DNA of 64,000 bases, taken from positions 13,699,950-13,763,949 of the forward strand of contig NC_037596.1 in the NCBI RefSeq assembly GCF_003073045.1, read 5' to 3'. The first letter of the stretch is position 1. Each line of letters opens with the position of its first letter. This DNA comes from Pomacea canaliculata. Its lineage: Eukaryota; Mollusca; Gastropoda; Architaenioglossa; Ampullariidae. Below, piece by piece: positions 10,373-64,000 of the stretch. Both the position numbers and the translations under genes were made by a program. The notes under the pieces were generated by a model that had not been told where the DNA came from, did no database searches, and saw nothing but the letters and a program-made list of their open reading frames with translations.

Positions 10373-10770
10373 AACAAGATGAGTGGACGATGAAACCTTT
10401 CTTGTGTTTCTCAGTTCGGATATTTTCTTCATTGTATCAAAACAGTCATGTAAATATCTTTGCATAAAACCCCGTGATGTCACAAGACCTACGAACATCT
10501 TTGCTTTAAAAAAAAAATTAGTAGTAGGACATTGTAGCGGGACTGTAAACATCTCGGTACACAGGGAGAAAGTTGTTGTTTATTATAAAATGTTTCTTCA
10601 GTAGGAGGAAATCATTCCTTTGTTGCAACACTCCTTAAATATCTTCACACACACGTGGTCTGCACCAGGAAACAGTTATTTAAATTAGGTAGCTGCTATG
10701 TAAACATTGTCACATTTTCTACATCTCACAACTTCAACAGAGAAGTAGAGATTTCCTTTTTGTCTTTCTC

Positions 10771-10817
10771 GTCGGTTTGTTTGTTTGCTTGTTTGTTTAT
10801 TTGTTTGTTTGTTTGTC
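10771..10817 (+). repeat. (TTTG)n microsatellite
   Basis: A run of TTTG/TTTA tetranucleotides just downstream of gene B. Read on the minus strand, the TTTATT at 10797-10802 supplies an AATAAA about 65 nt past the gene B stop codon, so it may serve as its polyadenylation signal. Confidence 0.7.
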
Positions 10818-10866
10818 CTACAAATGTTAAAGCTGGAATAAGGTCTGGATTGATCATCGGCGCTTG

Positions 10867-12346
10867 TTACGAGTGACCAGGGACATCGAAAGTGTCATCC
10901 TCCTGCTTCAAGTCTCTCGCCTGCTGACGGAGGGACCTCAGACGGTAACCCATGACGACGGACGACACGATGGCGACCGCACTGACGCACAACATGGCGA
11001 CAGTAACCGCGATGATGGCACCGGCGTGTTGCGCAGTCGCGCTGACGTCATTTCCGCTAGAGGAACTCATCGGTTTTCTGGTAGTGGATGATAAGCTCGA
11101 CTTCCACTTCTCCACTGGTGTGGATTGTGTGGATGATGAGAGACTCGTCGTCCTGCTCGGATGTGGGATGACCGTAGTGGTAGTCGTGGTCTTCGCTATT
11201 TGACAAAAACAACACTGTTATAAACTGTTTTTTCTCTTCTTTCTTTCTTTCCTAAAGGAAGATTTTTTTTTAAACTTCCGGTCAAACTTTTTTCTTGGTG
11301 GCCCTCACATACCTCAGTTTTTCTCTCAATGCCTCTAAAATGGATAGATGAAAGGCGATTAAAAAAAATTAACAGGTCACCAGACAGAAAGATAAAGGAG
11401 AAAGATATGAGATGTATTTTCAATGGTTAGATATAGATAAAGCTAAAGGGTTTCTACTATGATTCGACAAACTAAGTAGTCACAAAGACAATACTCACGT
11501 ATGACAGAAATATTAACGAGTTTGTTGAGCGATGGCTTATCAAACAACTGAAAGAACAACTGCCCCGTGTCCTCAACTTTAAACGCCTTGGTCAGCATGA
11601 AGTGGTCAGGATGCAAGCACTTGCACACCTGGTCATTACTGCTGGTGCAGTTATCCTGTGATCTCCATAATCTACACATTGTGACATAATGTTTCAAGTT
11701 CATGGGTTTGTGAAGAACAAAAGCTTTATAAGGTGCGGTGAGGTTTCTCCATGAAAACTCAATCTCTGACAACACACTCTCCTCCACGATGATGGACCCA
11801 TTGTAGTTGTCCAGAGAGAGCCCATAAGATCCTGTAATAAAGAGAGATAAATTTGGGGTCAGAGGTCACTGAGATAAATAATGCACAAACATTTGGTTCT
11901 GATCAAAAGCGTCTCTCTTTCTTTCTCTCTCTCACACACCTCAACCCATATCTATGGAAACGTAATACAACCCACGAATATACTACGACATTATGAATTT
12001 ATTAAGTAACATCCCCGCTACACCAACACTTCTACAACCACACCATCATATTATCATCATCTTTATTCTTCTTCTTCATCGATGTCCTGTTTCTTTCTGA
12101 CCAACACACGCTCTGTATGACAACCGCTAGTTAACCCATTGATGCCTTTCTTGCAGAACATTTCTACACCATGAACACTAATGATGAACTGATCGTTAAC
12201 AAAGTTAACAGGTTCTAAGTCAAGATTAGAGACAGACACTAAACTACTCTAGCAACATTTTTTCTTACACACTTACCCCATTCTGAAGCACAAGGCAGAA
12301 GGATGAACAATGACAAACCTAACAAAGTGTTGACCCGATGCTCCAT
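10867..12346 (-). CDS. Single-domain Ig-family type I membrane protein (gene B)
   Basis: Three exons with consistent phase-1 introns give a 243-aa protein. Exon 1, 12277-12346: signal peptide (MEHRVNTLLGLSLFILLPCA). Exon 2, 11499-11831: a 333-nt domain of exactly the same length as gene A exon 2 and clearly paralogous (SLDNYNGSIIV, EIEFSW.NLTAPY, FDKPSL.KL.NI). Exon 3, 10867-11195: a Ser/Thr/Pro-rich stalk with a run of six threonines, one TM helix (AGAIIAVTVAMLCVSAVAI...), a basic stop-transfer segment (GYRLRSLRQQ) and a short tail ending DVPGHS. It is a cell-surface protein with a mucin-like stalk; ligand unknown. It lies head-to-tail with gene A, so the pair probably arose by tandem duplication and then gained or lost Ig exons. 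Confidence 0.75.
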
Positions 12347-20748: not shown

Positions 20749-20789
20749 TCTAGTCCCACTAGATGTTCCTTGGAGCGAGAATATGCTTG

Positions 20790-20870
20790 TACCCTATACA
20801 GTAGGACTTACCTGTGTTTTCTGTGGGTGACAGTAGGGACTGTTACAGAAGTTGTTAAACGCTACAACTA
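20790..20870 (-). promoter_or_regulatory. Promoter and noncoding exon, arylsulfatase copy 2
   Basis: Aligns with 16585-16665: ACACAG followed by GTAAGTCCTACTGTAT. The acceptor side reads CTCGCTCCAAG at about 20775, so the 5' UTR intron has shrunk to about 45 nt. The TATATAG of copy 1 is not conserved here (AACTTCTGTAACAG), so expression may differ. Confidence 0.4.
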
Positions 20871-41619: not shown

Positions 41620-43490
41620 GCGTGGTGAATAGTGTTTTTTCGGAGTGCGCTTTTTGCCAGTATGTAACAGTGCTATGTGTGTGGGAAATCTTTATAAGAT
41701 TTTGTTTTTATTAAAGAATACTTTTTTTATGAGCTTGCATTGCATGTCGAGCAAGTAAGAAAGTATATAGTATAAGAACAAAGTGTGAATGTTCAGTCAT
41801 TGATGTTTATTATTTGTTCATGTGCACGATGGCTATGATTTTTTGTCATGAACATTTTGAACTGTCCTGGCTTCTCCTTCACGCAAAGTCAACGGGATTT
41901 CCGAAGGATCCATAAGGTTGATTTGAAATGTCTACATATGATTAGCTTTTTTTTTTTCTTTTCTTTTTTTTTTTTGTGAAAAAACTTCATGGTGAAACGT
42001 GTATAAGTATATTGTTAATACTACTTTCAGTTTAAGAAAATAATTATCACTGCGAAAATTTTAAAGTGTTAATCACATTTGACAACAGATGATTTTTTTT
42101 AATGTGCTTCAAGAAATTGGTAGGCTTCACCATATGATGGTGAGAAAAGAAGATAGATGTGTGTGCCATCTGGCAAGGACAAAAAAACTGATGGCATTGC
42201 ACATTCTAAGACATCTGTATGTACAAGATGGGATGATTATTGAGTCTCTTCGATGAAACAATCTGACCAATTACTTTGCATCTCGATGTAAGCAGGTTAT
42301 TGTTTCAGGAAAGTCTGTGTTTATCTAACTGTGGGTTATAAAGCTTTTCTAATGGATCTGATGGTAGCCTGAAAGGGTGCAAATGCCATTTCACGTTGAT
42401 AGGCTCTTTTTTTTATGTATTTGTCACATTGTAATCAATCACTAAGCTATGCTTTGTAAATCCGTTCATGAAAACTTTATCATTTACCTTATGTGTAACA
42501 TTGTAATTTAGTTATTAAGATGTTTTTTTTGCTTCATCGGATATTTAATAATATTTCTCCAAATGTAACTTGCTTTTGGCTCAAGCTCTTGGGTTGATTG
42601 GAAGATGAGAGTTGTTGTGAAAGGTGTTTTACAGTTTTACATTTTACTTACAAATATAAAACTTTGAATTGTAGTTTTGGTGCAGAAGCTACTCTCCATA
42701 AGATTTTTTCACATTGTATGTATAATATTTATGGTCGGCAATTCTTTTAGGCATACTTATATTTTAAAAGCATAGCTCTAGCTCTGTTCTCCAAACGGTG
42801 CTACAATAAGACCTTCATTGTTGTTTTTTGGCATCAGTATGAAAGACTTTCTGAATTATGCACATCAGACTAAGTACTTAAACACTAAAGAGTTTGGGGG
42901 GTATGGTGTACAACTACTTTCTTTTGGCATGTGCTGTCCATTTAACGTCTCACATGTTGACGGCATTCTTTACATAAAAAAGTTCTAGAATAGTCATAAA
43001 ACACACCATGAGATGCTGACAATACCAAATTTTCATCTTTTTTATAGTAAATTTGAATCAAAATATATTTAACTACAGTTTCCAGGGGGGGGGTGTTGAT
43101 TCATCACCTATTACCCTTTTGGATACAGTACTAAAATGGCATACAGATTCCTTCTGGAAATGGGTGGGATTATTGTTTGCCATCGAATGCAGTATCTGGA
43201 GCTACCATGTTTACAAATGAAAAAGTTGTGAGCTCTTTCTCCTGTACAGAAGTTCTTCATGTGAACTCTCGAAATCTTCAGTTTTAAATTATACCAAGTT
43301 CGTGCATTCAAACAACATCACAGAGGAATTGGTTCTATCAAAAGTGTTCTCGCATGCCTGCGCACTATGGAAGGAGAGAAAATCCTCGAGCCGTCCTTGA
43401 ACAGGCATCACATACAAAGAGTGTCACAAGACGAGATCTGAAAGAGAAACCTTTTACTCATGATGTCGAGTTTATTTCTCAAATCGAAAA
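41620..43490 (+). repeat. Duplicated repeat, copy 2
   Basis: Collinear with 1740-2060 plus 3880-5480, without the 1.8 kb that separates them there. It includes a partial SINE (43340-43450, ACGAGATCTGAA, CACAAAGAGTGTC). It carries many one-base deletions relative to copy 1, and no gene. Confidence 0.6.
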
Positions 43491-44369: not shown

Positions 44370-44600
44370 GCAACATGGTTGATCACATGCAGAAAAAAAA
44401 ACAAAAAACAACAGCGTGCTCGAAGACGAAGATCTGAACCCAGAAACAGCTATTAAGGTTACCAGCTGTTAAAATGCAGACACAATGTATGATTCCGCTC
44501 TAGGCTTTGTTTTTATTTTACAATGATTTGTACCTACCCAGGGTACCTGGCTCGCCTCAGGTCGATGTCTGCTACTCAGCGTAGAAATAAAACTCACTTT
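44370..44600 (-). repeat. SINE-like copy
   Basis: Minus strand carries CTGGGTTCAGATCTTCGTC, the box-B-like motif of the SINE at 5140, preceded by CCAGGTACCCTGGGTAGGTA. Closely related copies lie at 46065-46350 and 49455-49750. Confidence 0.5.
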
Positions 44601-46064
44601 TCAATCTTTCTCCCTTGCAAAGCCCTCACCTCTGTGTATCTGCTACATCTAGATGACGACGTCTGTTATTCTTAATAATCTAAAGCTTTAACGTGTACGG
44701 AGAAGAAAAAAACTAAAATCGCAAAAAGCATCAAAATAAGCATTCTCTGGTGAAATGCACACCATCTAAACATTGTCCCAGACCTAGACATATTTCAAAA
44801 ACTGCTTAAAATTCTCTTACCTGGTGTCAGTAAACTTTGGTGGGATTTATTGTTTCAACTTTTTAACCATCAAAGTGGGATACCACGGTCTATTTCGCTT
44901 GTAAAGTGGAGAACACCTGGATAAGTTTACAAACTTATTCAATAATAAAATAAAAGGAGTTCAGAATAAGGAGAAAACAAGCAAACGACGTCTTTCCTTT
45001 TTTCTGCATTCAGGTGTTCACATCTTTTTACGTTTTAATTGGCTGCCACAAAGACAGAATACATTTTCTGTGAATATGTTTAACATTGGAACATATGTGA
45101 GTTTAAGTTGATCATATTTTTAAACCTAAAGCCAGAACAAGGCAAACCACCATAAACACATATGAACTTAGATTATTAAACTACAGAAATACACTCAAGA
45201 CATGGATAATTACTTTTGGCATTACTTACCAAACAAAGTGCACTTAATGGTGTCCCACCACAGTTGCCGACAACATGAATAACCCATTGAAGTCTGCGAG
45301 TTTTGTAATTAAATGTCGGACAACTAGAACTGCACGCGCACTGCCCACAGACGCACTGCTACATCGATGACAAATAATGATAACAATTATTATGTGGAAG
45401 TTCCAGTCAATGAGACACTAACAGCAGTAGGTCGAAATTGCTCCTGGAAAAATAAAAGCCTCAAACACCATATGTAGTTCTATCAAAGAATGCAGAGAAA
45501 TAACTATCTAAAAGTACCAACGGCTTTAATTACTAACAATTCTTCTCTCGTTTTGTGAAAATAATATGTTAACTAGGTAGTACATTTGCTTGACAGTCGT
45601 TATGACACTGGTTTGAGTACAGCTGTCTCTTTAGTCCCATGTCTTTTGATTGCAGCTCAAAGACCAAACTGAATGGATGCCAAGTGCGAATAGAGTACTT
45701 TGCTGGCGGATAATTAATGAATGGATAGGTTTTTGATGCTGAAATTTACGTATTAGTTTTATATCGCATATATCTACTGATATTTTAAAAAACGCAAGCC
45801 GTTCGGGTTGATCTTCAATGTCAAAAGCGGATTAAACGAAACCTGAATATCATATGATCTCTTTTACATTGTTTGCCTGTAGTCGCAATTACGAGCTTTG
45901 TGTCTATCAACCTTCATATAACCAATATTTGGCAGGAAAGGTCCAGCAGATTGAAAAAGGTGCGGTTCAAAATTAGAAGTCATTGTTTGGACAGCAAACT
46001 AATTTCTGCTGCCAACTGGTATTTTTCATTTATTGCTTTAGTTACGATATACTAAAACTCACAT

Positions 46065-46350
46065 GAGGATTTCACCTATTTCCCCTTCCGAAGTAACCAT
46101 GGCTATATCACAGACAGTCTGCCGGCCCTGTGAAACAGATGTCACTTCCAGAGAAAAAAAAACAACCAATGTGTTCGAGATACGATCTGAACACAGGAGA
46201 GCTCTTAACAGTTACCCCGCTGTTAATATACAGACACAAGGTGTGTTTCCAGTCTACTTTGTTTTTATTCTACAATCATTCGTAGCTAACCAGCTGGGGT
46301 ACCTGGCCGCGCCCCGAGGTTGATTTTTGCTACTCACAGTGGAAATAAAA
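46065..46350 (-). repeat. SINE-like copy in unit 1
   Basis: Minus strand: CCTGTGTTCAGATCGTATCTC then TGACATCTGTTTCACAGGGC CGGC, matching the tail of the 5140 SINE (TGTGATGGCTGTTCACAGGA CCGGC). Confidence 0.5.
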
Positions 46351-47171
46351 CTTTTATTCTTCTTACAGCTGAAGATGAGTCTTATTTTCTAAGTTCTTTC
46401 CTTAATATTTACTTACCAGCAGCATAGTGATCATTTTCGAACAATATAATATTAATATATATATATTTTGAAACGCCTGATGGTAATCTTGCTTTGAGAA
46501 AGTACTTCTAGGTCATTTATTTAACTCAATCCTACCGAAGTCGTGACTATTCAAGACTCTAAAGTTTCCTTCCTGCTGAATTTTAAGAATTCAAACTAAA
46601 CCAAATTAATGAATGTTAAATACTACTATGGTCAAGTACCTGCGCCTGGTCATTTTGTAGAATAAAGATGTGTGAACGTAAAAGGTGATGTTGATGCCAA
46701 CACAGTATCGCACTTCTGTAAAATGTATTTTCTTTACACACGAAAGGAACCAATAAAGATACTCATTGGGAAAAACTGTGGAATTTGACACTAATCTTGA
46801 CGACCAGCTACATTTGCGCAGACTGTCAGAAGTTCCGTGGTTCTGACACGCAGAACAGCTAAATAACAGTCCAGTATTAACTTTCCTAAACCAGAGACAT
46901 TTCTATACAGATTTTTGCCTAAACATCGACTCTTTCATATGAACAGTTTCTAATGATATTGCTAGCCTAAAATATTTTCTAGAAGACTACCGCAACAGCA
47001 GTTTATTCAAAGGGTTCAATTAATAAGCATACGCTTGGTCGTAATTAAATAAAAATAGAAAGATCAAAAGTAGCACGATGTCTGTATATTTTGCGCCGTT
47101 TCCTTTGTTAAACGGGTGTTTATTGATCAGATGATTTTGTCGCAGATAGGTGACTAATTAAAAAAAAAAAG

Positions 47172-47179
47172 TATAAAAA
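47172..47179 (+). promoter_or_regulatory. TATA box of peptide gene 1
   Basis: TATAAAAA 86 nt before the ATG at 47258, followed by GGTAGGTTGGGTCTTTGAGC and TTCATTCTGAATCC, conserved in gene 2 and partly in gene 3. Confidence 0.75.
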
Positions 47180-47257
47180 AGGTAGGTTGGGTCTTTGAGC
47201 TTCATTCTGAATCCTGAAGTCTTCTGACTGGTACAGAAAATTAGTGAAAACTGAAAC

Positions 47258-47954
47258 ATGAAGGTTTGTGTTATTCTGGTTGTCGTCGGCATAGCCATGG
47301 CGAGTGCGGAATACGGTAAGAATTTTACGATGAGTTTAGTTAATTGTTCTGGTGGTCGGGAAGATTTGATACCTGGAGCACCTAACAGTGTTCTCCATAA
47401 CGACCTTTGCTAAAGGGCAGCATAAAGGTCCATCGTGATAAGCTCTGTTCATTGTTCTACGTTTGCCATACAGGTTTTTCTAAAATATCCAGTTTGGCTG
47501 GTGAAGTTTCTGCTTTTTTCAGTTCATGCTAAAGATTTTTTTTATTTGTAAGAGTTGTTATCATTGCATTCCGACACTGAATTTTGTTGTTCTTAATGTT
47601 TGTTGCTAGTGACTACCGTAAGGTCATTGTCGACTGAGAGGTGAATGTTTGAAATAAGTCTACCGATGGAGAGAGTGTATTCTTAATGAAGAGTTTCTTT
47701 TGGTGTGTTCAAAAGATCGCAGGGAGGCCTCTCCAGGTTGGGTCCGGGACGCCGAAGAACGCAGAGAAGCCTCTCCAGGTTGGGTCCGGGACGCCAAAGA
47801 ACGCAGAGAAGCTTCTCCAGGTTGGTACCCGGTCGCCCAAGAACGCAGAGAAGCATCTCCTGGTTGGGACCGGGACGCCCAAGAACGCAGAGAAGCCTCT
47901 CCATGTTTCAGCCCGGTCGCCGAAGAACGCAGAGAAGCTTCTCCAGGTTGTTGA
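47258..47954 (+). CDS. Secreted repeat-peptide precursor 1 (RREASPGW family)
   Basis: Two exons. Exon 1, 47258-47315, encodes a signal peptide (MKVCVILVVVGIAMASAEY) and ends TACG before GTAAGA. Exon 2, 47716-47954, follows TTCAAAAG. Phase 1 on both sides gives 98 aa. After the signal peptide the protein is six repeats of 14 residues (42 nt), each starting RREASPGW (the fifth RREASPCF, the last RREASPGC then stop), followed by a variable acidic/polar end: VRDAEE, VRDAKE, YPVAQE, DRDAQE, SPVAEE. RR before each unit is a natural convertase site, so the precursor could release several short peptides starting EASPGW. Neither GKR amidation sites nor a cysteine framework is present. All three forward frames are open across the repeat, but differences between units are synonymous in the core only in this frame. 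A 3' UTR with AATAAA follows. Family unknown to me. Confidence 0.72.
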
Positions 47955-48155
47955 CCATAGGCCTCCGAAAGGCACAGGCTTGTTGGTGTTGTCAAATGCA
48001 ACAGTTAGCCTGCATGCAAAGCATTCCATTTCACGTGAAGGCTCTTTTCTAGATTTAAAACAAAAATCAGTCGTTAAGTTGCTAAATGTAGACTATCCCT
48101 TTGTCCTCTCGACACGAAAAGTAACAATGTCATTGAAAAATCCAGTAAACAAATC

Positions 48156-48161
48156 AATAAA
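48156..48161 (+). promoter_or_regulatory. AATAAA of peptide gene 1
   Basis: AATAAA 200 nt past the stop codon, within a 3' UTR that is well conserved in gene 2. Confidence 0.65.
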
Positions 48162-48214
48162 AGTAGTGACATGTATGATTTGTGAATTACTTTTTTTGTG
48201 AGATGCTGTGTGAA

Positions 48215-48243
48215 CAGTGGCGTAGGAACAGGGGACAGGGCAA
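48215..48243 (+). mobile_element. Truncated CAGTGGCGTAG MITE at the duplication junction
   Basis: Only the first ~28 nt (CAGTGGCGTAGGAACAGGGG ACAGGGCAA) remain; unit 2 sequence starts immediately. The full element survives at the equivalent place in unit 2 (51589-51738). Confidence 0.75.
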
Positions 48244-49454
48244 AGTTGGATACCAATGTTTATTACGCTTGTAAAGGAAGACCCATGGATAAAGTTTCCA
48301 AACTTATTCAATAATAAAATAGAATGAGGTCAAAATAATTAGAAAACAAGCAAATGACGTCTTTCCTTTTTCTGCATTTAGGTGTTAAGACCACATCTTT
48401 TAAATGTTTTAATTGCTGTCATATAGACAAATACATTTTCTGAACATTTTTTGTGAAATGTTTAACATTGAAACATATGTGAATTTTAAGTTCATCATCA
48501 TATTTTTAACCTAAAGCCAGCACGAGGCAAACCACTCTAAACACATATAAACTTAGCTTATTAAACTAGAGAAATACACTCATGACATGAATAATTACTT
48601 TTGGCAATACCTACCAAACAAGCTGCACTAAATGGTGTCCCCACCACTAATGTCGAAAGCGTGAATAATCCATTTAAGTCTGCGATATTTTTAATTAAAT
48701 GTCGGACAACTAGAACTGCACGCGCACTGCCCACAGAAGCACTGCTACATCGATGACATAAATAATAATAATTTGGAAGTTCCAGCCAATGAGACACTAA
48801 CAGCCGTACATCCAAATTGCTGCGGGAAAAATAAAAGCTTCAAATACCATATGTGGTTCTACAAAAGAATGCAGAGAAATAACTATCTAAAAATTACCAA
48901 CGGCTTTAATTACTAGCATAAAGAATTCTTCTCTCGTTTAGTGAAAATACTATGTTAACTATGTAGTACACTTGCTTGACAGGCTTTATGACACTCGTTT
49001 GCATACAGCTGTCTCTTTTGTCCCATATCTTATAATTGCAGCTCAAAGACCAACCTGAATGGACTCAAGTGCGAATCGAGTACTTTGCTGGCGGATAATT
49101 AATTAATGGATAGGTTTTTGAGGCTGAAATTTACATATTAGTTTTATATCACCTATATCTACTGATATTTTAAAAAACACAAGCCGTTCATGTTGATCTT
49201 AAATGTCAAAAGCGGATGAAATGAAACCTGAATATCATATAGTCTCTTTTACATTGTTTGCCTGTAGTCGCAATTAAGAGCTTCGTGTCTATCAAGCAGC
49301 ATATAACCAATATTTGGCAGGAAAGGTCCAGAGGATGAAAAAGCTGCGGTTCAAAATTAGAAGTCATTGTTTGGACAGCAGACTTATTTCTGATGCCGAT
49401 TGGTACTTTTATATCTATTTGTTTAGTTGCGATATAATAAAAACTCACACGAGG

Positions 49455-49750
49455 AGGATTTCACATAGTTGCCCTTCCAAAGTAACCATGGCTATATCAC
49501 AGCCAGGCTGCCCGCCCTGTAAAACAGATGTCACATCCAGAGAAAAAAAACCCACAACAACAATGTGTTCGAGATACGATCTGAACACAGGAGAGCTCTG
49601 AACAGTTACCGAGTTTTTAATATCAGACACAACGTGTGTTTCCAGTCTACTTTGTTTTTATTCTACAATCATTCGTAACTAACCAGCTGGGTTACCTGGC
49701 CGCTCCCCGGGGTTGATTTTTGCTACTGTGAGTGGAAATAAAACTATTAT
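49455..49750 (-). repeat. SINE-like copy in unit 2
   Basis: Counterpart of 46065-46350, duplicated with the unit; carries GTGTTCAGATCGTATCTCG on the minus strand. Confidence 0.5.
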
Positions 49751-49838
49751 TCTTCTTACTGCCGAAAATGAGTCTTTTTTTTCTTAGTTCTTTCCTTAAT
49801 ATTTACTTACCAGCAGCATAGTGATCATTTTCGAACAA

Positions 49839-49839
49839 G

Positions 49840-49874
<35 letters not shown>

Positions 49875-49875
49875 G
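49839..49875 (+). repeat. (GTT)12 microsatellite
   Basis: Twelve perfect GTT triplets, not present at the aligned position of unit 1. Confidence 0.95.
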
Positions 49876-50580
49876 CCTGGTGGTAATCTTGCTTTGAGAA
49901 AGTACTTCTAGGTCATTTATTTAACTCAGTCCTACCGAAGTCGTGACTATTCAAGACTCTGAAGTTTCCTTCGCGCTGAATTTTCAGAATTCAAACCAAA
50001 CCAAATTAATGAATGTTAAATACTACTATTGTCAAGTACCTGCGTATAGACATTTTGTAGAATAAAGATGTGTGAACGTAAAAGGTGATGTCGATGCCAA
50101 CACAGTATCGCGATTCTGTAAAAAGTATTTTCCTTACCCACGAAAGGAACAAATATAGATACTCATTGGGAAAAACTGTGAAATTTGTCACTAATCTTTA
50201 CGACCAGCTACATTTGCGCCGACTGTCAGAAGTTCTGTGGTTCTGACACTGCAGAACAGTTTAATAAAACTAATAACAGTCCAGTATTAACTATCCTACA
50301 CCAGATACATATCTATTCAGATTTCTACCTGAACACTGACTCTTTCATATGAACAGTTTCTAATGATATTGCTAGCTGAAAATATTTTCAATAAGACCAC
50401 CGCAACAGCAGTTTATTCAAATGGTTCAATTAATAAGCACACGCTTGGTCGTAATTAAATAAAAATAGAAAGATCAAAAGTAGCACGATGTCTGTATATT
50501 TTGCGCCGTTTCCTTTGTTAAACGGGTGTTTATTGATTGGATGATTCTCTCGCAGATAGGTGACTAATTAAAAAAGTATG

Positions 50581-50588
50581 TATAAAAA
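50581..50588 (+). promoter_or_regulatory. TATA box of peptide gene 2
   Basis: TATAAAAA 85 nt before the ATG at 50666, with the same downstream GGTAGGTTGGGTCTTTGAGC. Confidence 0.75.
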
Positions 50589-50665
50589 GGTAGGTTGGGT
50601 CTTTGAGCTTCATTCTGAATCCGGAAGTCATCTGACTGGTACAGAAAATTAGTGAAAACTGAAAC

Positions 50666-51334
50666 ATGAAGGTTTGTGTTATTCTGGTTGTCGTCGGCAT
50701 AGCCATGGCGAGTGCGGAATACGGTAAGAAATTTACGATGAGTTTAGTTAATTGTTCTGATGGTCGGGAAGATTTGATACCTGGAGCAGCTGACAGTGAT
50801 CTCCATAACGACCTTTGCTAAAGGCCAGCATGGAGGTCCATCGTGATAAGCTCTGTTCATTGTTCTACGCTTGCCATACAGGTTTTTCTAAATAATCCCA
50901 TTTGGCTGGTTAAGTTTCTGCTTTTTCCGTTCATGCTAAAGATTTTTTTACTTGTAAGAGTTGTTATCATTGCATTCTGACACTGAATTTTGTTGTTCTT
51001 AATGTTTGTTGCTAGTGACTACCGTAAGGTCATTGTCGACTGTGAGGTGAATGTTTGAGATACGTCTACTGATGGATAGAGTATTCTTTATGAAGACTTC
51101 CTTTTGGTGTGTTCAAAAGATCGCAGGGAGGCCTTTCCAGCTGGGGTCTGGGGCGCCGAAGAACGCAGAGAAGCCTCTCCAGGTTGGGACGACTGGGCAG
51201 CCAAAGAACGCAGAGAAGCCTCTCCAGGTTGGGACGACTGGGCAGCCAAAGAGCGCAGAGAAGCCTCTCCAGGTTGGGACGACTGGGCAGCCAAAGAACG
51301 CAGAGAAGCCTCTCCAGGTCTCCAGTCACCATAG
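50666..51334 (+). CDS. Secreted repeat-peptide precursor 2 (RREASPGW family)
   Basis: Exons 50666-50723 and 51120-51334 (phase 1) give 90 aa. The signal peptide is identical to that of gene 1 (MKVCVILVVVGIAMASAEY). The first repeat is divergent (RREAFPAGVWGAEE). Three near-identical 15-residue repeats follow (RREASPGWDDWAAKE, 45 nt each), and it ends RREASPGLQSP. Thus the repeat number, unit length (15 against 14) and variable part have changed, while RREASPGW and the following acidic E-RR junction are kept. The three central repeats differ by only one synonymous base (GAA/GAG), suggesting recent homogenisation. Same likely role as gene 1: a precursor of several short secreted peptides with different tails. 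No known family recognised. Confidence 0.72.
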
Positions 51335-51528
51335 GCCTCCGAAAGGCACAGGCTTGTTGGTGTTGTCAAATGCGACAGTTAGCCTGCATGCAAAGTATTT
51401 CACTACACGAGAAGGCTCTTTTCTAGATTAAAAAAAAAATCAGTCGTTAAGTTGCTAAATGTAGACAGTCCCCTTCTCATCTCGACTCGAAAAGTAACAA
51501 TGTCATGGAAAAATCCAGTAAACAAATC

Positions 51529-51534
51529 AATAAA
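51529..51534 (+). promoter_or_regulatory. AATAAA of peptide gene 2
   Basis: Aligned with the signal of gene 1, about 195 nt past the stop codon. Confidence 0.65.
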
Positions 51535-51588
51535 GGTGAGAGACATGTATGATTTGTGAATTACACTTTTTGTGAGATGCTGTGTGAG

Positions 51589-51738
51589 CAGTGGCGTAGA
51601 AACAGGGGACAGGGCAATGGGGACAACCACCCCCTCAAGAAAAATACTAAAGAGGCAAGAATGTGAATGTCGTTGACTGTCAGCATGAAGTTTGCCCTAC
51701 CTCCTCTCCACAAAGCTGAGCATCTTCCTACGCCACTG
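51589..51738 (+). mobile_element. CAGTGGCGTAG MITE, most complete copy
   Basis: 150 bp, starting CAGTGGCGTAGAAACAGGGG and ending GCATCTTCCTACGCCACTG, so the outer 11 bases are perfect inverted repeats. The flanks do not show a clean 8-bp duplication. Non-coding. Confidence 0.7.
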
Positions 51739-52889: not shown

Positions 52890-53270
52890 GGTTTCAAAAT
52901 GCACGCACTTGCTGATGCTGTTCAATGCAGCAGGTAGCTGCATGCACAGCATTCCACTTGAAACGACCATCTTCCCTCTCAACCCAATCTCTCTAAAACC
53001 ACGAACTTGTATAACTTGACGATTTTGCCAGACGATTTTTTTCCAGCAAAATTAATTACATATGCCACCCTTCCCGGTCTTTCCGACAGTCTTCCTTCGT
53101 GCCATTCTGTGAGCTGGAGGAGGTTGTTCCTGCTAGATTAAAGTTAGGACACATGCTCCTATGTCACGCAAGGACTCCTCTTACATGGCGTAATGTTATG
53201 ATTGCTTGTCCTACACATTTCCATGCTAAAACGTTGTCGAAAAATCCAGTAAATCTGTGTGGTTCATGAA
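52890..53270 (+). pseudogene. Relic 3' end of an RREASPGW-family unit
   Basis: GCAGCAGGTAGCTGCATGCA CAGCATTCCA and CGAAAAATCCAGTAAA with GGTTCATGAATAAC align with the 3' UTR of genes 1 and 2 (GCAACAGTTAGCCTGCATGC AAAGCATTCC; GAAAAATCCAGTAAAC; GATTTGTGAATTAC). No signal exon or RREASPGW repeats are detectable, so this is the remains of a lost family member between genes 2 and 3. Confidence 0.55.
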
Positions 53271-53522: not shown

Positions 53523-53530
53523 TATAAAAG
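53523..53530 (+). promoter_or_regulatory. TATA box of peptide gene 3
   Basis: TATAAAAG 90 nt before the ATG. Downstream TCTTTGTG, TTTCAT, GAATTCTGACGAAG echo TCTTTGAGC, TTCATTC, GAATCCTGAAG of genes 1 and 2, showing a shared promoter origin. Confidence 0.65.
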
Positions 53531-53612
53531 ATATCCGAATCTTTGTGTTTCATCGAGAATTCTGACGAAGCCTTCAAATCTATATCGCTGTATTAGAAGC
53601 AAGAAAGGAAAC

Positions 53613-54099
53613 ATGAAGGTCTGCATCATTGTGGCTACCATGTGTGTGGCTGTCGCTGTCGCCAGTATGTGGCCTTATTCAGTTATTGTAATAAACCTTT
53701 TGAATGTGATTTTCGTATCTTAACGGAGACGGTTTTGAAATGATGAGAAGTAGTTCCTTATTATTTATGCTTCAAAAAGCTCAAGGGAACTAAAAAGAAT
53801 TCCCCTCTGGGATAAGTCTTATAAACAAAATATGCATTTACAGTTTTGGAGATCTATAATGAACTTGAATTATATACGTCTGTGCTCCTAGTTTTCATAA
53901 AATGGACTACTATTTGGTTCTCTCCTCAACAGGGATTTTGCTTTTTATCGCGCATTTGACATTTGAAGTCGGGACACCGATTTTCAAATACGAATTCAGC
54001 GCGTGGCAGTACGGGCGCTGGCCATTGGTCGGGCCAAAGGCTGTTCCGACCCCTGCAAGGCCTTCTGGGAACTTTCTGGTGTCACGTTGCGCTCGTTAA
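53613..54099 (+). CDS. Secreted peptide gene 3, divergent second exon
   Basis: Exon 1, 53613-53664, encodes MKVCIIVATMCVAVAVA and ends before GTATGT in phase 1, like genes 1 and 2. A second exon at 53933-54099 follows a good acceptor (TTCTCTCCTCAACAG) and keeps frame to give 72 aa. It has no RREASPGW repeats: it reads a hydrophobic start, then FKYEFSAWQYGRWPLVGPKA, a Pro-rich PTPARPSG and a basic end (SRCAR). Promoter and signal exon are clearly homologous to genes 1 and 2, so this is either a family member with a replaced second exon or the true second exon is elsewhere. I regard the first exon as well supported and the second as tentative. Confidence 0.45.
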
Positions 54100-54104
54100 G
54101 ACGC

Positions 54105-54700
54105 CATATGCATATGGAAAGGCCTCGCTGGTCAGAGTGGACAGAGCATTGTAATATAGAATCTAGTTCTGTCTGAAAGTGATTAGCAAAGAAAACAGAA
54201 TGTCGGAGAGCTGTGGCCGAAATCTCGAGATTACTTTCAAGCTGTTGAGTACGATTCCTGCATTTAACACGCGGGACGCTAGTCTAACATGGCTGCTGTG
54301 GTTCGTGATCCTTATTGCAAAAGAAATATTTTTACGGAATATTTCGGGTCTAGACAAGCCCACTCGATGCTTTGGACAACTAACAACTGTAGCAAAGATT
54401 CCGATTTGGTCGGCAGGATTCTCTGGAAATAATGAATGATAAAATAAGAGTCTGCTTCCAATTGTGTATCTCGGATGGAGCATCATTCTGAAGACATGCA
54501 TAAGAATTAAATTTCCGAGGAGCCTTGAATCTCTGGAGAAAGGAATGTTACTCAATTGATGCCCAGGTAAAATTTTAATAAAATTTTAAACTTTGTTGCT
54601 GTGTATATTATTGTCCCATTAAATGTCTGTTAAGGAACCGTGCTATTAAAGTTCATAAGCAATTAGTCATAGTTGCACGTGTTTTCTGTAACAGGAGGAA
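54105..54700. other. Nothing supported
   Basis: Open on both strands for up to 130 codons but without a domain or splice pattern; possible old repeat sequence. Confidence 0.35.
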
Positions 54701-54708
54701 GTGCCTTA

Positions 54709-54800
54709 GACCGGTGGTTCTCAAAGTGTGGTCCGCGGACCCCACTAGTGGTCCGCAGCCTTGAGTCTTGTGGTCCGCGGCTGACAGTCGTCATATGTCA
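54709..54800 (+). mobile_element. hAT-type terminal fragment
   Basis: CCGGTGGTTCTCAAAGTGTG GTCCGCGGACCCC and two further GGTCCGCGG copies are typical of the end of many animal hAT MITEs (CAGTGGTTCTCAAAGTGTGG). The opposite end was not found; the LINE at 54958 inserted close by. Confidence 0.6.
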
Positions 54801-54957
54801 GCAAAGTGATGTTTAAAGTGATGTATTCCTGGCATTAACATTTTAATTACAGAGAACGAGGTACGTAGTTTTATGTCAACTTACTACTAGACTACTGTCA
54901 CAAAGTACATTTAGTTTTGAATTGTAATGAAACAAATGCGGCAAATTAAATTTAAAT

Positions 54958-57900
54958 CCACCACCAATTGGTGCAACTTACCTTGTAGTGGTGTGGTGGC
55001 TTGTGTGCCTCGTCGACCCACAGAGCTATGTCGGCGGGAGCCTTGTGCTCCTGGCAGGTCCAACCAAGCCGAACAGGTCTGTCAGGGTAGAGGCCAGACT
55101 AAAGTGTTGCACCCGGCCAGAGGATGGTCGTTAGCCTTGGACGGCAAGTCTCTCTACGAGAAAGACACTCGGAAAAGAAAACTGACGCCGAAGACGGATG
55201 TGCTGGGCCATCGTGCGCTTAACGGCAGCACAACGCACTGACACTCGCATGGAATGGACAACGCTCACTCTAAACGATATGGTGCTTTGCCTGTGGGGTC
55301 CCGCCAGGCGGGCGAAGTGCCGGGCCCTGCGCCTCAACAGGGCCCACCCCATGATACTGGTGGTCACCACGCCCCGATGCGAGGAGCCAGGCTTCGGAGG
55401 CGGAGGGAAATGGCTACTGGCCGAAAAGGAACAACAACCACAGAAGAGACCCTGAGGCCTCTCAACATCCTACAGTGGAACGCCGAGGGCGTTTACAACA
55501 AAAAATTAGCCCTCACCGAAAGACTACATGCTGAAAAAATAGATGTGGCCTGTATTCAAGAAACACACCTGAACCCCAACCACAGATTTACCATCAGAGG
55601 TTACCAAACCTTCAGGATGGACAGAGAAGGAAGACACAAGGGAGGTGTGCTGATTCTTGTAAAGAATAACATCCCAGCAAGAGATTTCCAAGTGGACACG
55701 AATCAGCAAGCTGAAATAAATGGAGTCAAGATTACAGTAGACAGCACTGTGCTCACTATCTTCAACCTGTACTGCCCACCCGACAAAGAACTTTCCCTGC
55801 AGACTCTTGATATCCCTGCCGAAAACTGCTTGGCTGTCGGCGACTTCAACAGCCACTCAACCTGCTGGGGCTACGACGAGACGGATAATAGAGGAGAAGA
55901 AGTGGAGGACTGGCAGATCGATAGCAAGATGATCCTGTTGAACGATCCAGAAGACCCACCGACTTTCTTCTCGCGCAGATGGGTCTCCTCAACGACCCCT
56001 GACCTTGCTTTCGCCACTGACGACCTCTCCAAGAAAACAACCAGAGGGGTACAGAACCAGTTAGGCGGCAGCGACCACAGACCAGTCAAACTGGCCATCA
56101 ACTTGCAGTACAGGCCCCAAGATTCAAAGACATTTCCCAGGTGGAATTACAAGAAAGCCAACTGGGATACTTTCGTCTCATTGTCAGACCAGTACACCAA
56201 AGGAATACGTGTGGCGGACCAGAACATCAACCGTGCCATCGATGCATTCAACAAGGCGATCTTAAAAGCTGCCTCAGAAGCAATACCAAGAGGCGCACGA
56301 AAGAACTATAGGCCATACTGGACAGAAGAACTCCAAGAACTAGAAGATGAAGTCTCCAAGATCAGGGAAAAGGTTGAGAATGACCCCACCATAGAAAACA
56401 CATAGCACTGAAAGAATCAAGCGCCAAATACAGAAAAGCCTGCAACGAAGCTGCAAGAAAGAGATGGAGAGAAAAGACAGAGGAACTAAATCTAGACAGA
56501 GAAGAAACAAGTTATGGAAGCTGGCAAGGGCGATGAATGATGAAGATACTAGAAGTGCACCGATCGTCATACAACAAGCACAAGATATGCTAACAGGTAG
56601 AAAAGCAGCAAACGCTTTCATTGACAGCTATGAAGAGGTCAGCAACATCACAGTACCAGAAGAAAAGAAACAGCAAGTTCATGAAGAAAGAAGAGAATTC
56701 AACCAGCGAAAACACCAGGAAGAATATATGAACAAACCATTCAACATGAAAGAGTTTGAAGAAGCAGTCAAGACCCTAAGTCAGAAGAAATCCCCTGGAC
56801 CAGATAAGGTCACCAATGAAATGCTGCAACACCTGGGCCCACGAGCCAAGACCAAACTCCTCGACCTCTTCAACAACAGCTGGAACAGCGGCCATGTCCC
56901 ACAAATCTGGCGAGAGGCAGACATGGTGCCCGTCCACAAGAAAGGCAAAGACCGAGCGAAGGTGGACAGTTACAGACCCATAAGCCTCACCAGTGCGTGG
57001 CAAGTTAATGGAGCGCCTCATCAACACCAGATTATCATGGCACTTGGAAAAGAACAACATCCTTACACCAGAACAAGCAGGCTTCAGACAACATCGCTCA
57101 ACTGAAGACCAGGTTGCATACATTGCCCAGAAGATCGAAGATGGTTACCAGGACAAGAAGCACACGCTGACGGTGTGGATAGACATGGAAAAGGCCTTCG
57201 ACAAGGTCTGGAAAGATGGACTGAGGTTGAAACTCCAGAAGTGTGGCGTAACCGGCTGTATGTACCAGTGGATCTCTCAATACCTGAAAAATAGGAAGGC
57301 CAGAGTCCACGTTGGTGGAACATACAGCCGAAAGAAGACGCTGAGAGAAGGAGTTCCTCAAGGGGGAGTACTCAGTCCTACCCTGTTCCTTGTCTTCATA
57401 AACGACATCATCAAGGACCTCCCCCGAAATGTCCAAGGAGCCATCTATGCAGATGACCTGGTCCTTTGGTGCACAGAAGAACACCTGACAACTGCCAACT
57501 ACCGACTCCAAGAGGCGCTTAATGTCCTGCAGGACTGGACGAAAAGGTGGCTTGTCAAAGTCAACCCCAAAAAGACCACCTACACTATCTTTAGTCTGTC
57601 CACTAGGGAACAGAAGGCCACTCTGAAGTTCGATGGACAGATTCTCCCACTGGAGGACAACCCTACCTACCTTGGGGTAACCTTCGATAAGAGACTTACA
57701 TGGAAGCCTCAGACCAAGAAGGTCGAAGCCAGAGCCAAGGTGCGACTTGCAATTATGAAGAAGTTGGCTGGCACGAACTGGGGCGCGGATGACAGAATCC
57801 TCAAGAAGCTGTACACCGGAAGGGTCAGACCAGTCCTAGAGTATGGCATGACAGCATGGGGCACAGCAGCAAAATCCAACTTTGAGAAGGTTAGCAAGGT

Positions 57901-59142
57901 TCAGAACCAAGCAGCCAGACTCATCACTGGAGCCATGAGGTCTACGCCCATACAAGAACTGGAGACAATCACAGGGTTGGAATCACTTGAGGACCGACGT
58001 GACACAAAGATGCTCGTCCAAGCCGCCAAGTTCAAGAGACTTCCAAATCACCCCATGAGAAACAGACTGGCTCAGCCGACGAAGGGAAGGTTGAAAAGGG
58101 GAAGTTTCATCCACCAGGCTAGGATCCTTGAACGAAAACACCGAGACATCTTGGAACACGACCTCAGAGAGATCCCCCTGTGCCGGACAAACCCAGCATG
58201 GAATGAAACTGCTTTCCCCCCTGATTCACTGCAGCATCCCTGGTGTCAGCAAGAAAGACTCCCTAGACGCTGTGAAGAAGTCCTGTACTATGGAGTATAT
58301 CCACAACAACTTCCCACAAGATCAATGGACTCACGTGTTCACTGACGGGTCAGCCGAACAAGCCGTGAAAAATGGTGGCGCCGGAATTTACATCAGGTAC
58401 CCAGGAGGAAGAGAAGACCGTCTTTCTCTCGCAACTGGCCTCTACTCCACCAACTTCAAGGCTGAAGCAGTTGCCATTCAGACCGGTGCCACCCACGTTG
58501 AAAACAGTCCAGACACCTCCAACAACGTCGTCTTCTTTACGGACGCACTGTCTGTCCTGCAGGCCTTACAGACTGCCAGAGACAAGAAACTGAACGACCT
58601 GTCCACTGCTCTCTCCTCCTTATGCGGAGACTGCACAGTCGTCTTACAGTGGATTCCCTCCCACTGTGGGATTTTTGGCAACGAAGCCGCAGACACTCTT
58701 GCCAAGGAAGGATCCAAAAAAGAGCAGCAAGACAGGTCCACCACCTACAGCGAAGTCAAATCCATCATCAAGGCCAAACAGCACAACAAGTGGCTGCAGC
58801 AGCACCCACGTTTCAACCGAAACGACCCGTACTACCTGCTTACAAGAGCTGAGCAGGTCATTATTTTCAGGCTGAGGACAGGCCACAACCGTCTCAATTA
58901 CCACCTTTACACCAAGCTCCGGATCGGCCAGACAGACCAGTGCCCGTGCCAGACAGGCAGTCAGACAACAGCACATCTACTGCAAGAATGTCCTATGCAC
59001 GAAGAACTCAGGCACCGCATTTGGACTGATGAGACGCCAGTATTGAGGAAGCTACACGGCAGCCTGGAGGACCTGCGGCGCACAGCATCATTCGTGCAGG
59101 AGGCAGGCGTGTCCATTTGAGTGAACGACGAAGAAGAAGAAG
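54958..59142 (+). mobile_element. Non-LTR retrotransposon, EN-RT-RNase H, with TSD
   Basis: 4,185 bp flanked by AAATTTAAAT on both sides (54948-54957, 59143-59152), ending in (GAA)n. About 300 nt of 5' region precede an apurinic-type endonuclease (55450-56100: ILQWNAEGV, CIQETHL, GDFNSH, SDHRPV). The RT runs 56780-57900 (KKSPGPDK, SYRPISLTS, DMEKAFDKVW, GVPQGGVLSP, YADDLVLW). RNase H is at 58330-58730 (FTDGSA, FKAEAVAI, FTDALSVLQAL, WIPSHCGIFGNEAADTLAKE), followed by a Cys-rich LRTGHNRLNYHL...CPC...HLLQECP end. Such EN-RT-RNH elements belong to the I/Jockey superfamily (I- or Nimb-like groups). Frame changes near 56400, 56490, 56995 and 58200 break the single ORF. No separate ORF1 is visible. 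All catalytic motifs are present, so decay is recent. Confidence 0.93.
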
Positions 59143-59152
59143 AAATTTAAAT

Positions 59153-60870
59153 TTCATAGTACAGTCTCAGAGTGATTTACAGTCTAAGAGTGATTTTACT
59201 GTATGATTTAGCATACATTTTCTTGGTATTTTTTTATCATAACCAAAAATAAATTTTTAGTTGTATGTGTTTTCATGTCTCAGCAACACCAGAAGTCTTG
59301 CTACCCCCCCCCCCCCAAATTCTCTTTGTGTGGTTAATAGAAGAAAAAGTCATACTTTTAATGTTTAGCGTCACATCACCAATAACTTGACCATATTGAA
59401 ACATTTTGTTTTAGAATTTTTAAGATATTCACTAAACATTTGCACAATTTACTTTTATAAGCTGTATTCAAGTCACTTTCAGAAGCCACGCAATGCCTTT
59501 AAAAAGAAAAATACTTGGAGGCTATGATAGATGGGGGGAAAATATTAAGTTATGAATTGTTGTTTATTTCAACAGGTTATCTGCATTGTTCATTATGCAC
59601 AGATGAAGCACACTCAGAATCGCTGCTTTGAGGTTTACATAAGAAGAGGGTGGGTTATGGTGCCCACCTTTCATCCCACTATGAATTACAAGAATCTCTA
59701 TAATGCAGCAGACCAATACAGAGTGCACAGTATGTATGCAAAATACATTTTATTAGCAAATTGTTAATATCAGGACTGGTGTCAAAATAAAATACATCTG
59801 GCACAGGTATTTCATCAGCAGATAAATATTGTATTGTACATAGTGGAATTGCAGGACTGTAGCCACTACTGCTTGTTTTCCAATGTGAGATTAATAATAA
59901 AAGAGTGGGAAGGATTATAAACCTCTGAAATATTTATAGATATAGCACCTCTGCTCGTTGGGGGGGGGGGGACTCTGGAACATAACCCCTGCAACAAGTG
60001 AGGGATCACTAGTTTATCTTACATTCATTTGGTATATGGTGGTTATAGCTTGTTTCTCTTACAGATGTTGCCAAATGATGTCACTGTATCAAACCAGAAA
60101 AGGGATGCCATATTATAACAGTCTGCTTCGTGCCAAGCATCAAGGTGAAGATAATTGCTCACAATGAAGATAATGGTGTTTACAGGTACTTACTGACAAT
60201 GTATTTGTTTAAGATGTTCAACCAAAAGGACTTCTGTTACAGAAGGCCAAGGTGAAAGAAACATTTTTGTAGAGTGGTTGTTCTGAAGTCTGTAGCATAA
60301 TTTTATATACGTTTTAACCAGTATTGCCAAAAAAAAAAGTTCATGGTGGGGCTAAATAGCATGTGTAATTCGTTTACAGTAATGCAATACAATGACCAAC
60401 TTTATTTGTCCCAATGGGCAATTTGAATGGGAGGTGTGCTCTGTTTTATTATATAAAAAATTATTACAAGTATGATAGAGTGTAATAGAGAAATTAACAT
60501 TAATGAGAGCTATGGGCAAGACATTCCTATGCACACCTACAACATCTCGCACACACCGCTGACAGTTCATCTGTGGTTGAGCAGCTGGACTGCTGATGAC
60601 ACAAAAGATTTCAGATGCCTATTGCTCTTGCATACAGGCATGGCAAAGCGCTTACCTGAACTTAATAACACAAACACCCCCGTTAGCACATGTTCAGGTA
60701 TTGCCAGAATGCTGGGAGCTTTCCTTACTAGTTGTTAATCACAGAAGGATGTCAAGTCCCTCTGTTTGATACCAATTATCTTAGAACAGGTGTGGACAAT
60801 GCTATTCAAACCACGTTTAACAATGTATTCAGTGTTTAGATTCCATTTAAGCTGGTAATCAAATCAGTTC
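59153..60870. other. Nothing firmly supported
   Basis: Poly-C at 59306 and poly-G at 59959. An open segment at 59570-59767 follows an acceptor-like TTTATTTCAACAG but has no partner exon. AT-rich otherwise. Confidence 0.35.
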
Positions 60871-60876
60871 CCTGGT

Positions 60877-61548
60877 TGTAATGGACGAGTTGTGGTCCTG
60901 CGCGCAATGGATAACTTATGCATTCATGTAGCATTCGCCCACACACCTAATTACAAACACATTCAATAAAGATCTTAATAACAATTAAAAGAATGTAATT
61001 AAACGATATATGAATATATATATGTCATACAGTGGGCTACTACATAGATCATGAAGCTTATCTCACGGGTGTTTCTTCGTGTTGCTGTTCTCCTGGTGAT
61101 AATTCCACAGTCCATAAGTTCCCAAGTTAGAGCTCACAAATTCCAATGTTCAGCAGTTCACTTAAGATAACAACGTACTGTTAATTCCAACGTTCACAAG
61201 TTCACCAAAGTTCACAATTCACTGTTACTTCCAATGTTCAGCATTCTCTGCTTTATATACAATAATATCTGAAGACCCTCGGACCCTTTAACATCTTCTA
61301 TAAGGCGGACCTTCTGTCGGCCACTCACTCGCCAGCCGCCTGGAAAAGTGAAGTTTCTTTCTTTGTGCCCGACTATCTTGTTTGTTCCTTCCGGTGGATG
61401 TACCTCTGGTCCTCTTTCTTCTTTGAATATGTAAAGCATGGTCTAAAACCATTACTAAAGGGGGGTGTTGATCGCCTTAGCGCAATACCCGGATTTTAGC
61501 TGGACCATAAGGGGTAGGACTGTTATCCAGTTACCTCCCCTGGCCATA
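60877..61548 (+). repeat. Solo-LTR-like block, copy 2
   Basis: Counterpart of 2093-2688: starts TGTAATGG and ends near CTCCCCTGGCCAT. It lies next to the LINE relic; no LTR-element genes adjoin it. Confidence 0.5.
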
Positions 61549-61706
61549 GTTGAATCTCAGCCACTCACGTAAGATGTTTTCGCTAGCTCCAACTGGACAC
61601 CGGTGCTGAATGGGGCAGCCAGACGTTTGTCACGTCTGTCGGGCTGATGTGCTGCCAGCTTGCCCAGTTCGCCACGTATTGTCCCTATCATCAAAATCAA
61701 ATATAA

Positions 61707-62375
61707 TCAAAACTTTACCCTAACAAAGTAAACACACTGAAAGTAGAAAATAGATTTTCTACACAGGTACCTGGAAGAGGTAACGGTTTCAACAGGTTTG
61801 CTATGTATCACACTGGGAGCAACAAAATCTTTGATTCTTTTAAAATCTATATTCAATTCTTTTGTTTTGTCTACATTTAACTCAAAGTTCTCATCACATT
61901 CAGTACTATCGTCCGTCCAATGCTTTTCTGACTTAACAGGCTTCATATGTTGACACACAGGCTTATGCACTGGGGCCAAAAACACACGTTTGTAAGAAAC
62001 CCTGAAAGATGGTGTAGGCTTGGCTTTGTATGCTGCAGGGATTGTGCCATAACCTAAATCCAGTTTGGTATTATTCTGGGTTGTTGTGCAGGTCACATAC
62101 TGATTATACTTTTTGAGAGTCTTCGTCAGATCAAAGTTGTTAAAGTCGCCCAGAAAAAATGTTGGTGCATCTGGTGACAAGGAATTGAATCTGTGTCACA
62201 TCAGCAATGATCATCCAGGCAGACATAGCATTTGCTCTAGGGTGAATATACACTACTCTGAAGAACAGTCCTGGAAATTCCATAGGTAGGTAGAAAGGGC
62301 AAAGGGAGACTGACAACAATTCGATATCCGTGGTGCAGATTGATTCAGGCACTACTACAATTTTACAGTATCTTT
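61707..62375 (-). mobile_element. Internally deleted CR1/L2-like LINE relic
   Basis: Minus strand: VVVPESICTTDIELLSVSL and FFRVVYIHPRAN, then (after a frame change) FFLGDFNNFDLTKTL, YNQYVTCTTTQNNTKLDLGY and FRVSYKRVFLAPVHKP. These are the C-terminal half of a CR1/L2-type endonuclease. The sequence then jumps directly to LNVDKTKELNIDFKR and IHSKPVETVTSSRYL, which is the end of the RT domain. Most of the RT, including the active site, is therefore deleted. Confidence 0.8.
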
Positions 62376-62380
62376 CATTA

Positions 62381-64000
62381 ACATACAAACACCGCCTCCA
62401 ATTGATTTACTGGTGACCACTGCGGATTGGTCACAGCGATATGGAAGACGAATCCGGAAATAAACAGCTCATCACCATTGATAGTGAAGACTGGCTGTTC
62501 ATTAAATTTGGCATGAAGATCCCTTAGTTGGCATTCCACTTTAAGCTTACCTATGGACTTAATATGGTTTAAGGCACGGTCATATTGACTGACTAAGTCT
62601 GATGGCTGACATAACGACTCATTTTGCTCCATCAGCCACTGCTGTAATAGGCAAATATCATAAATGATTCGCTCTTCTTTTTCTTGCCCACGATTGTAGT
62701 CTGCGGCACAGTTGGCTGCCCTCACTTGCTCTGAATTCAGTTCTGGTGCTATACATGTGTACAGAGCTGACTCTGGGTCTCTAAATTCGGCTGCTGAAGT
62801 ATTTGGAAATACATTTTTTAGTAATCCAATGACAGACTGCAGCTGTGTGTTGGTTGTCCGAAGCTTCTTTGCAAATTTCTGGGCAATTTTTTAACATACA
62901 AACACCGCCTCCAATTGATTTACTGGTGACCACTGCGGATTGGTCACAGCGATATGGAAGACTGAATCCGGAAATAAACAGCTCATCACCATTGATAGTT
63001 GAAGACTGGCTGTTCATTAAATTTGGCATGAAGATCCTTAGTTGGCATTCCACTTTAAGCTTACTATGGACTTAATATGGTTTAAGCACGGTCATATTGA
63101 CTGACTAAGTCTGATGGCTGACATAATGAGCATTTTGCTCCATCAGCCACTGCTGTAATAGGCAAATATCATAAATGATTCGCTCTTCTTTTCTTGCCCA
63201 CGATTGTAGTCTGCGGCACAGTTGCTGCCCTCACTTGCTCTGAATTCAGTTCTGGTGCTATACGTGTGTACAGAGCTGACTCTGGGTCTCTAAATTCGGC
63301 TGCTGAAGTATTTGGAAATACATTTTTTAGTAATCCAATACCGACTGCAGCTGTGTGTTGGTTGTCCGAAGCTTCTTTGCAAATTTTCTGGGCATTTTTT
63401 TAACATACAAACACCGCCTCCAATTGATTTACTGGTACCACTGCGGATTGGTCACAGCGATATGGAAGACTGAATCCGGAAATAAACAGCTCATCACCAT
63501 TGATAGTGAAGACTGGCTGTTCATTAAATTTGGCATTGAAGATCCCTTAGTTGGCATTCCACTTTAAGCTTACCTATGACTTAATATGGTTTAAGGCAAC
63601 GTCATATTGACTAAGTCTGATGCTGACATAATGACGCATTTTGCTCCATCAGCCACTGCTGTAATAGGCAAATATCATAAATGATTCGCTCTTCTTTTTC
63701 TTGCCCACGATTGTAGTCTGCGGCACAGTTGGCTGCCCTCACTTGCTCTGAATTCAGTTCTGGTGCTATACGTGTGTACAGAGCTGACTCTGGGTCTCTA
63801 AATTCGGCTGCTGAAGTATTTGGAAATTCATTTTTTAGTAATCCAATGACAGACTGCAGCTGTGTGTTGGTTGTCCGAAGCTTCTTTGCAAATTTCTGGG
63901 CAATTTTTTAACATACAAACACCGCCTCCAATTGATTTACTGGTGACCACTGCGGATTGGTCACAGCGATATGGAAGACTGAATCCGGAAATAAACAGCT
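62381..64000 (-). repeat. ~509-bp tandem array, more than three units, runs off the edge
   Basis: Unit starts (ACATACAAACACCGCCTCC) at 62381, 62894, 63403 and 63911, so periods are 513, 509 and 508 bp. On the minus strand each unit is nearly open and reads, in pieces, LRTTNTQLQSVIGLLKNVF, EFRDPESALYTCIAPELNSE, AANCAADYNRGQEKEERIIY and VFTINGDELFISGFVFHIAV. Single-base indels put successive units in different frames. I do not recognise the protein; it may be a retroelement ORF1 segment, since it directly precedes LINE endonuclease sequence on the same strand. Confidence 0.8.

Follow-up and report, generated by a model that had tools for sequence, protein, structure and literature searches.

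Two neighbouring genes of one plan lie on the forward strand of the window, the whole stretch of 64,000 nucleotides of Pomacea canaliculata DNA that was analysed (Table 1). In each gene a 58-nt exon for the signal peptide is separated by a phase-1 intron, about 400 nt long, from an exon built of 42- or 45-nt units. Translation of 47258-47315 gives MKVCVILVVVGIAMASAEY plus one base, followed by the donor GTAAGA. Motifs that we take to be TATA boxes and initiator-like elements precede both genes, the TATA box standing about 85 nt 5' of each ATG, and AATAAA follows about 200 nt 3' of each stop. When the sequence was read again and repeats were detected, the coordinates, splice sites and repeat content of both genes agreed with those of an earlier sequence-only reading of this DNA. 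Tandem Repeats Finder reports a 42-nt array of 5.7 copies at 47713-47950 (score 322) and a 45-nt array of 4.6 copies at 51116-51319 (score 317). The N-terminal signal peptide reaches a hydropathy of 3.59 over its best ten residues, a call made by a simple hydropathy scan and not by a trained predictor. After the signal peptide and EYD, the precursor consists of repeats only, and there are two cysteines past the signal peptide in gene 1 and none in gene 2.

Table 1. Features of the gene cluster, in positions of the window.
Feature	Position	Strand	Remarks
Duplicated unit, first copy	44871..48243	+	87.9% identity to second copy over 3439 columns
Second longest identical run between copies	47031..47127	+	97 nt, upstream of gene 1 TATA box
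Gene 1 putative TATA box (TATAAAA)	47172..47178	+	from sequence; initiator-like TTCATTC at 47201
Gene 1, whole coding span	47258-47954	+	98 aa
Gene 1 exon 1	47258..47315	+	signal peptide MKVCVILVVVGIAMASA + EY + one base; scan for hydropathy and phase-1 donors
Gene 1 intron, phase 1	47316..47715	+	GTAAGA ... AAAAG; from sequence
Gene 1 exon 2, coding part	47716..47954	+	units: five of 14 residues, then a short sixth; TGA stop at 47952-47954
Competing CAG|G acceptor, end	47722 (gene 1), 51126 (gene 2)	+	joined to exon 1
In-frame TAG past gene 1 stop	47958..47960	+	aligns with gene 2 stop; alignment, translations
Gene 1 poly(A) signal AATAAA	48156..48161	+
Duplicated unit, second copy	48241..51617	+	same alignment as first copy
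Gene 2 putative TATA box	50581..50587	+	from sequence; initiator-like TTCATTC at 50609
Gene 2, whole coding span	50666-51334	+	90 aa
Gene 2 exon 1	50666..50723	+	signal peptide same as gene 1
Gene 2 intron, phase 1	50724..51119	+	from sequence
Gene 2 exon 2, coding part	51120..51334	+	units: one of 14 residues, three of 15, then a short fifth; TAG stop
Gene 2 poly(A) signal AATAAA	51529..51534	+
3'UTR relic of a further copy	52897..52959	+	78% identity to 47968-48031, E 4e-9; between genes 2 and 3
Gene 3 putative TATA box	53523..53529	+	aligned with genes 1 and 2; initiator-like TTCATC at 53549
Gene 3 exon 1	53613..53664	+	MKVCIIVATMCVAVAVA, phase-1 donor GTATGT; signal-exon scan, alignment
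Gene 3 second exon, candidate	53933..54098	+	acceptor CAACAG|G; 55 non-repeat residues; low confidence

The promoter, the signal peptide and the intron phase are common to both genes, as had been noted before, but they lie within one 3.4-kb tandem duplication. Because this single duplication explains all three, their sharing counts as one observation and not as independent support. Identity between the copies is complete in exon 1 (58/58) and high in the 48 nt just 5' of it (46/48), in the TATA-containing stretch (96/107), in 46800-47100 (280/301), in the intron (371/396, 93.7%, with the donor GTAAGA unchanged) and in the 3' part (218/234, 93.2%). It amounts to 1703/1916 (88.9%) in the distal upstream region and to 170/201 aligned positions (84.6%), plus 48 gap columns, in exon 2. 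The longest identical run, of 100 nt, spans exon 1 and the donor; its P value is 0.0005 against uniformly shuffled differences but 0.07-0.09 once local divergence is kept, so that it is only suggestive. The second longest run is possibly a control element. An element roughly 200 nt long that ends in AATAAAA occurs at 44400-44594, 46154-46352 and 49531-49745; the first of these copies, at 44400, shares 75-77% identity with one in each duplicated unit.

The pair described in the sequence-only reading is present, but the set is larger. A diverged third promoter and signal exon span 53523-53664. The promoter, leader and exon 1 of this gene 3 align to those of genes 1 and 2 with a local score of 62, as compared with a best score of 47 among 2641 random stretches of the window; without the TATA region the margin is thin (a score of 40, the best of 2655 random stretches being 39). 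The search for a second exon covered AG sites that passed a pyrimidine filter and opened a phase-1 reading of 30 residues or more. The best-looking acceptor among the candidates opens the exon listed in Table 1, for which no Pfam family was found with 53 of its residues, and no RR-repeat exon for gene 3 was seen in 53730-55300 and 58300-63990. A relic of a further 3'UTR stands between genes 2 and 3. Its longer local alignment scores 75, the best of 1273 random window stretches reaching 73; a separate match to the second half of the 3'UTR lacks significance, since as many as 221 of 1285 random stretches score as high. An exon-2-like array was not found 5' of the relic, where 496 of 675 random stretches attain the score of 30. 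The locus thus carries, in a row, three promoters of the same design and a relic.

The rest of the window holds other repeated and coding material. Neither a tRNA nor an Rfam family at its gathering score was found in the window. On the minus strand, two sulfatase genes (PF00884; 15225-16328 and 19783-20793) lie in repeated blocks and share about 92.5% identity over 1019 nt; the one at 19783-20793 has N-acetylgalactosamine-4-sulfatase as its best PDB sequence match. Also on the minus strand, 5479-12346 carries an Ig-domain exon (PF13895 at 6458-6874) and receptor-like exons, one of which is duplicated at 87% (7439-7793 with 11489-11843), and signal-like exons occur within this region at 12346 and 8798. 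A LINE retrotransposon on the plus strand, at 55242-59120 downstream of the third signal exon, encodes endonuclease, reverse transcriptase and RNase H domains over overlapping frames. A tandem repeat of about 510 nt, with copies 96-98% identical, runs from 62378 to the window end at 64000. A stretch of 1.4 kb that occurs twice, at 3914-5254 and 42084-43442 with 76.5% identity, is perhaps a mobile element.

The repeat units of both genes follow the plan RR-EA-S-P-G-W-(variable tail)-A-x-E. Eleven units are present, nine of them complete, and A-x-E stands directly before the next RR in all nine. The core had been described as a fixed RREASPGW. RR, EA and the P of EAxP indeed occur in every unit, but the exact core is found in only 7 of the 11. 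The S is present in 10 units (the motif RR-EA-[SF]P in all 11), and GW is present in seven and absent from four. GW, previously regarded as a conserved peptide head, is therefore less conserved than RR-EA-x-P, so that what is fixed may be a cassette for processing and not a bioactive head; the most constant stretch of the units is one that resembles processing signals. All nine distinct predicted peptides, two of which are short ends, are acidic (pI 4.05-4.94). According to the translations, a Gly that could serve for amidation before the basic pair is absent from all 11 units.

Exon 2 is open in all three plus-strand frames in both arrays, and two minus-strand frames across the gene 1 array hold open reading frames of 100 aa or more. 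Because several frames are open, openness is no evidence for any of them, and the frame was judged from substitutions among the 11 repeat units of both genes, with minimal changes counted site by site and without placement on a tree. In these units, which are related rather than independent and carry few changes, and with the boundary of RREASP set after the units had been viewed, pN/pS of the RREASP part is 0.05 in the proposed frame as compared with 54.9 and 2.5 in the other plus-strand frames. When GW is included, the values are 0.36, 1.03 and 1.13. When the preceding E is added and the two first units are omitted (nine units), pN/pS is 0.00 in the proposed frame and 22.9 in another, and the third plus-strand frame has no synonymous changes. 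Third positions make up four of the five variable RREASP sites but none of the five in the five complete gene 1 tails (Fisher's test by sites, p=0.048). Likewise, five of six minimal changes in the core are synonymous as compared with none of eight in those tails (p=0.003) or, when the first gene 2 tail is added, none of ten (p=0.001). The core by itself departs from the 28% expected (p=0.008), whereas the lack of synonymous changes in the tails alone is not unusual (p=0.11 for 0/8 and 0.06 for 0/10), and the gene 1 tails alone give a lower N/S elsewhere (0.31 in one plus-strand frame and 0.20 in one minus-strand frame), so that these counts do not demonstrate diversifying selection on the tails. 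One minus-strand frame, reading EASLRS, has a pN/pS of 0.30 in RREASP; a strict signal-exon scan found no signal exon of a minus-strand gene near the arrays. The substitution pattern supports the RREASP frame beyond its openness, and the gene model and reading frame proposed earlier are upheld.

The choice of acceptor bears on the same question. The acceptor AAAAG|A is weaker than a CAG|G that lies 7 nt downstream and comes closer to the acceptor consensus. Use of the latter would place exon 2 in another frame, giving secreted repeats that read KNAEKPLQVG..., and this joined frame is open in both genes (178 aa in gene 1 and 120 aa in gene 2). Such a product is improbable, since the pairwise differences in the conserved part, summed in that frame, are 0.5 synonymous and 91.5 non-synonymous and the two proteins stop at different places. 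In the RREASP frame both genes have an in-frame TAG at positions that align, two codons past the TGA of gene 1, and of the two joined acceptors only AAAAG at 47715 brings exon 1 into this frame. A still smaller probability is given to retention of the intron, by which the product would be a secreted peptide of 51 aa with two cysteines past the signal and the repeats would be 3' untranslated. This unspliced frame is open and of equal length in both copies, but the donor GTAAGA is identical in both and the repeats carry a coding substitution pattern. In the retained part all five differences are non-synonymous and give no sign of constraint, five being too few to exclude it.

Repeats of 42 and 45 nt can grow by slippage, and the three 15-residue units of gene 2 differ by a single base, as would be expected of a minisatellite in a copy that is dead or non-coding. 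Against this, none of the 11 units carries a frame-breaking change, the core is biased towards synonymous changes, and exon 1 and the donor are identical in both copies, so that a minisatellite is the reading to which the least weight is given. Both the pair of genes and the layout of a peptide precursor are real features of the sequence, and they are probably coding.

Comparisons with Pfam, PDB and prokaryote, viral and phage DNA returned no relatives. Both proteins were without a Pfam family at E values up to 0.1, and a PDB sequence search with the gene 1 protein gave no matches. A pattern search retrieved 51 stretches in prokaryote genomes and eight in viral contigs, none of them a relative, and phage records likewise held no relatives; animal genes are not expected in any of these three collections. 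Animal multi-copy prohormone precursors of the neuropeptide type consist of a signal peptide followed by many similar peptides between dibasic sites. Both genes resemble them in these respects but lack both an amidation Gly before the basic pair and spacer domains, and their tails vary. Molluscan APGWamide precursors carry PGW beside dibasic sites, with GKR after GW. The tripeptide and its dibasic neighbourhood are common to both systems, but GKR follows GW in none of the 11 units and a tail follows in the complete ones; APGWamide identity was rejected on this ground, as it had been in the sequence-only reading. Conotoxin-like families combine a conserved signal exon, a faster-changing mature part and clustered duplication with a cysteine framework. 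The first three are matched here, but there is no cysteine framework and each precursor would hold many peptides.

The reading that we favour, with a probability of roughly 0.6, is that the tandemly duplicated genes encode secreted multi-peptide precursors, cleaved at dibasic sites, in which a conserved cassette is joined to a changing tail. The repeat units, the RR present in 11 of 11 and the contrast between core and tail all support this architecture, which had been proposed before. The signal peptide would be removed after ASA upon secretion, an enzyme like a prohormone convertase would cut at each RR, and a carboxypeptidase would then trim the RR. The released products would be acidic peptides of 12 or 13 residues composed of EASPGW or a variant of it and a variable tail, with five complete peptides from gene 1 and four, of two kinds, from gene 2. 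Purifying selection would keep RR-EA-x-P, which is constant in all units, and the tail, which differs between units and between genes, would make a mixture of peptides from one precursor. Unlikely, by comparison, is a secreted repeat protein that stays uncut and serves a structural, mucus or matrix role, its RR and E pairing by charge. Only repeats follow the signal peptide and EYD, and RR flanked by E could form a charged repeat; however, units of 14 and 15 residues with varied tails are better suited to separate peptides, and every unit carries the dibasic site, both points being suggestive only. The genes are best called multi-peptide secreted precursors, a known kind, with an unusual fixed RR-EA-x-P cassette.

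The peptides released from such precursors could be used as neuropeptides, in defence or in a venom-like manner. An exocrine product, whether for defence, venom-like, mucus or mating secretion, seems somewhat likelier than a neuropeptide because the tails are variable, amidation signals are absent from all units and the genes sit in a duplicating cluster. In apidaecin-type antimicrobial precursors of insects, RR is followed by X-Ala and X-Pro dipeptides and then by a peptide starting with Gly, all repeated in one precursor. X-Ala and X-Pro dipeptides, like EA and SP or FP, are removed by dipeptidyl peptidases in some insect precursors. The genes described here share this order, RR-EA-[SF]P leading to a peptide that can begin with Gly, repeated within one precursor, a likeness in layout. 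They differ in having a single EA and a single xP dipeptide and in peptides that are acidic (9/9) instead of basic and rich in proline and arginine. It is a rather unlikely extension of the favoured reading that EA-xP is a two-step leader for a dipeptidyl peptidase, whose stepwise removal of EA and SP, following the cut at RR, would leave peptides starting at GW or its variants. The precursor would then be a small evolving library of peptides behind a fixed processing cassette, in a family without described members that had converged on the insect apidaecin layout.

Should these genes be expressed, they would yield short secreted peptides in which a constrained cassette can be compared directly with a changing tail, within a cluster that has gone through two or more duplications. 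They would also show how families of this sort can be discovered from one genome through the codon-level contrast between repeat units.
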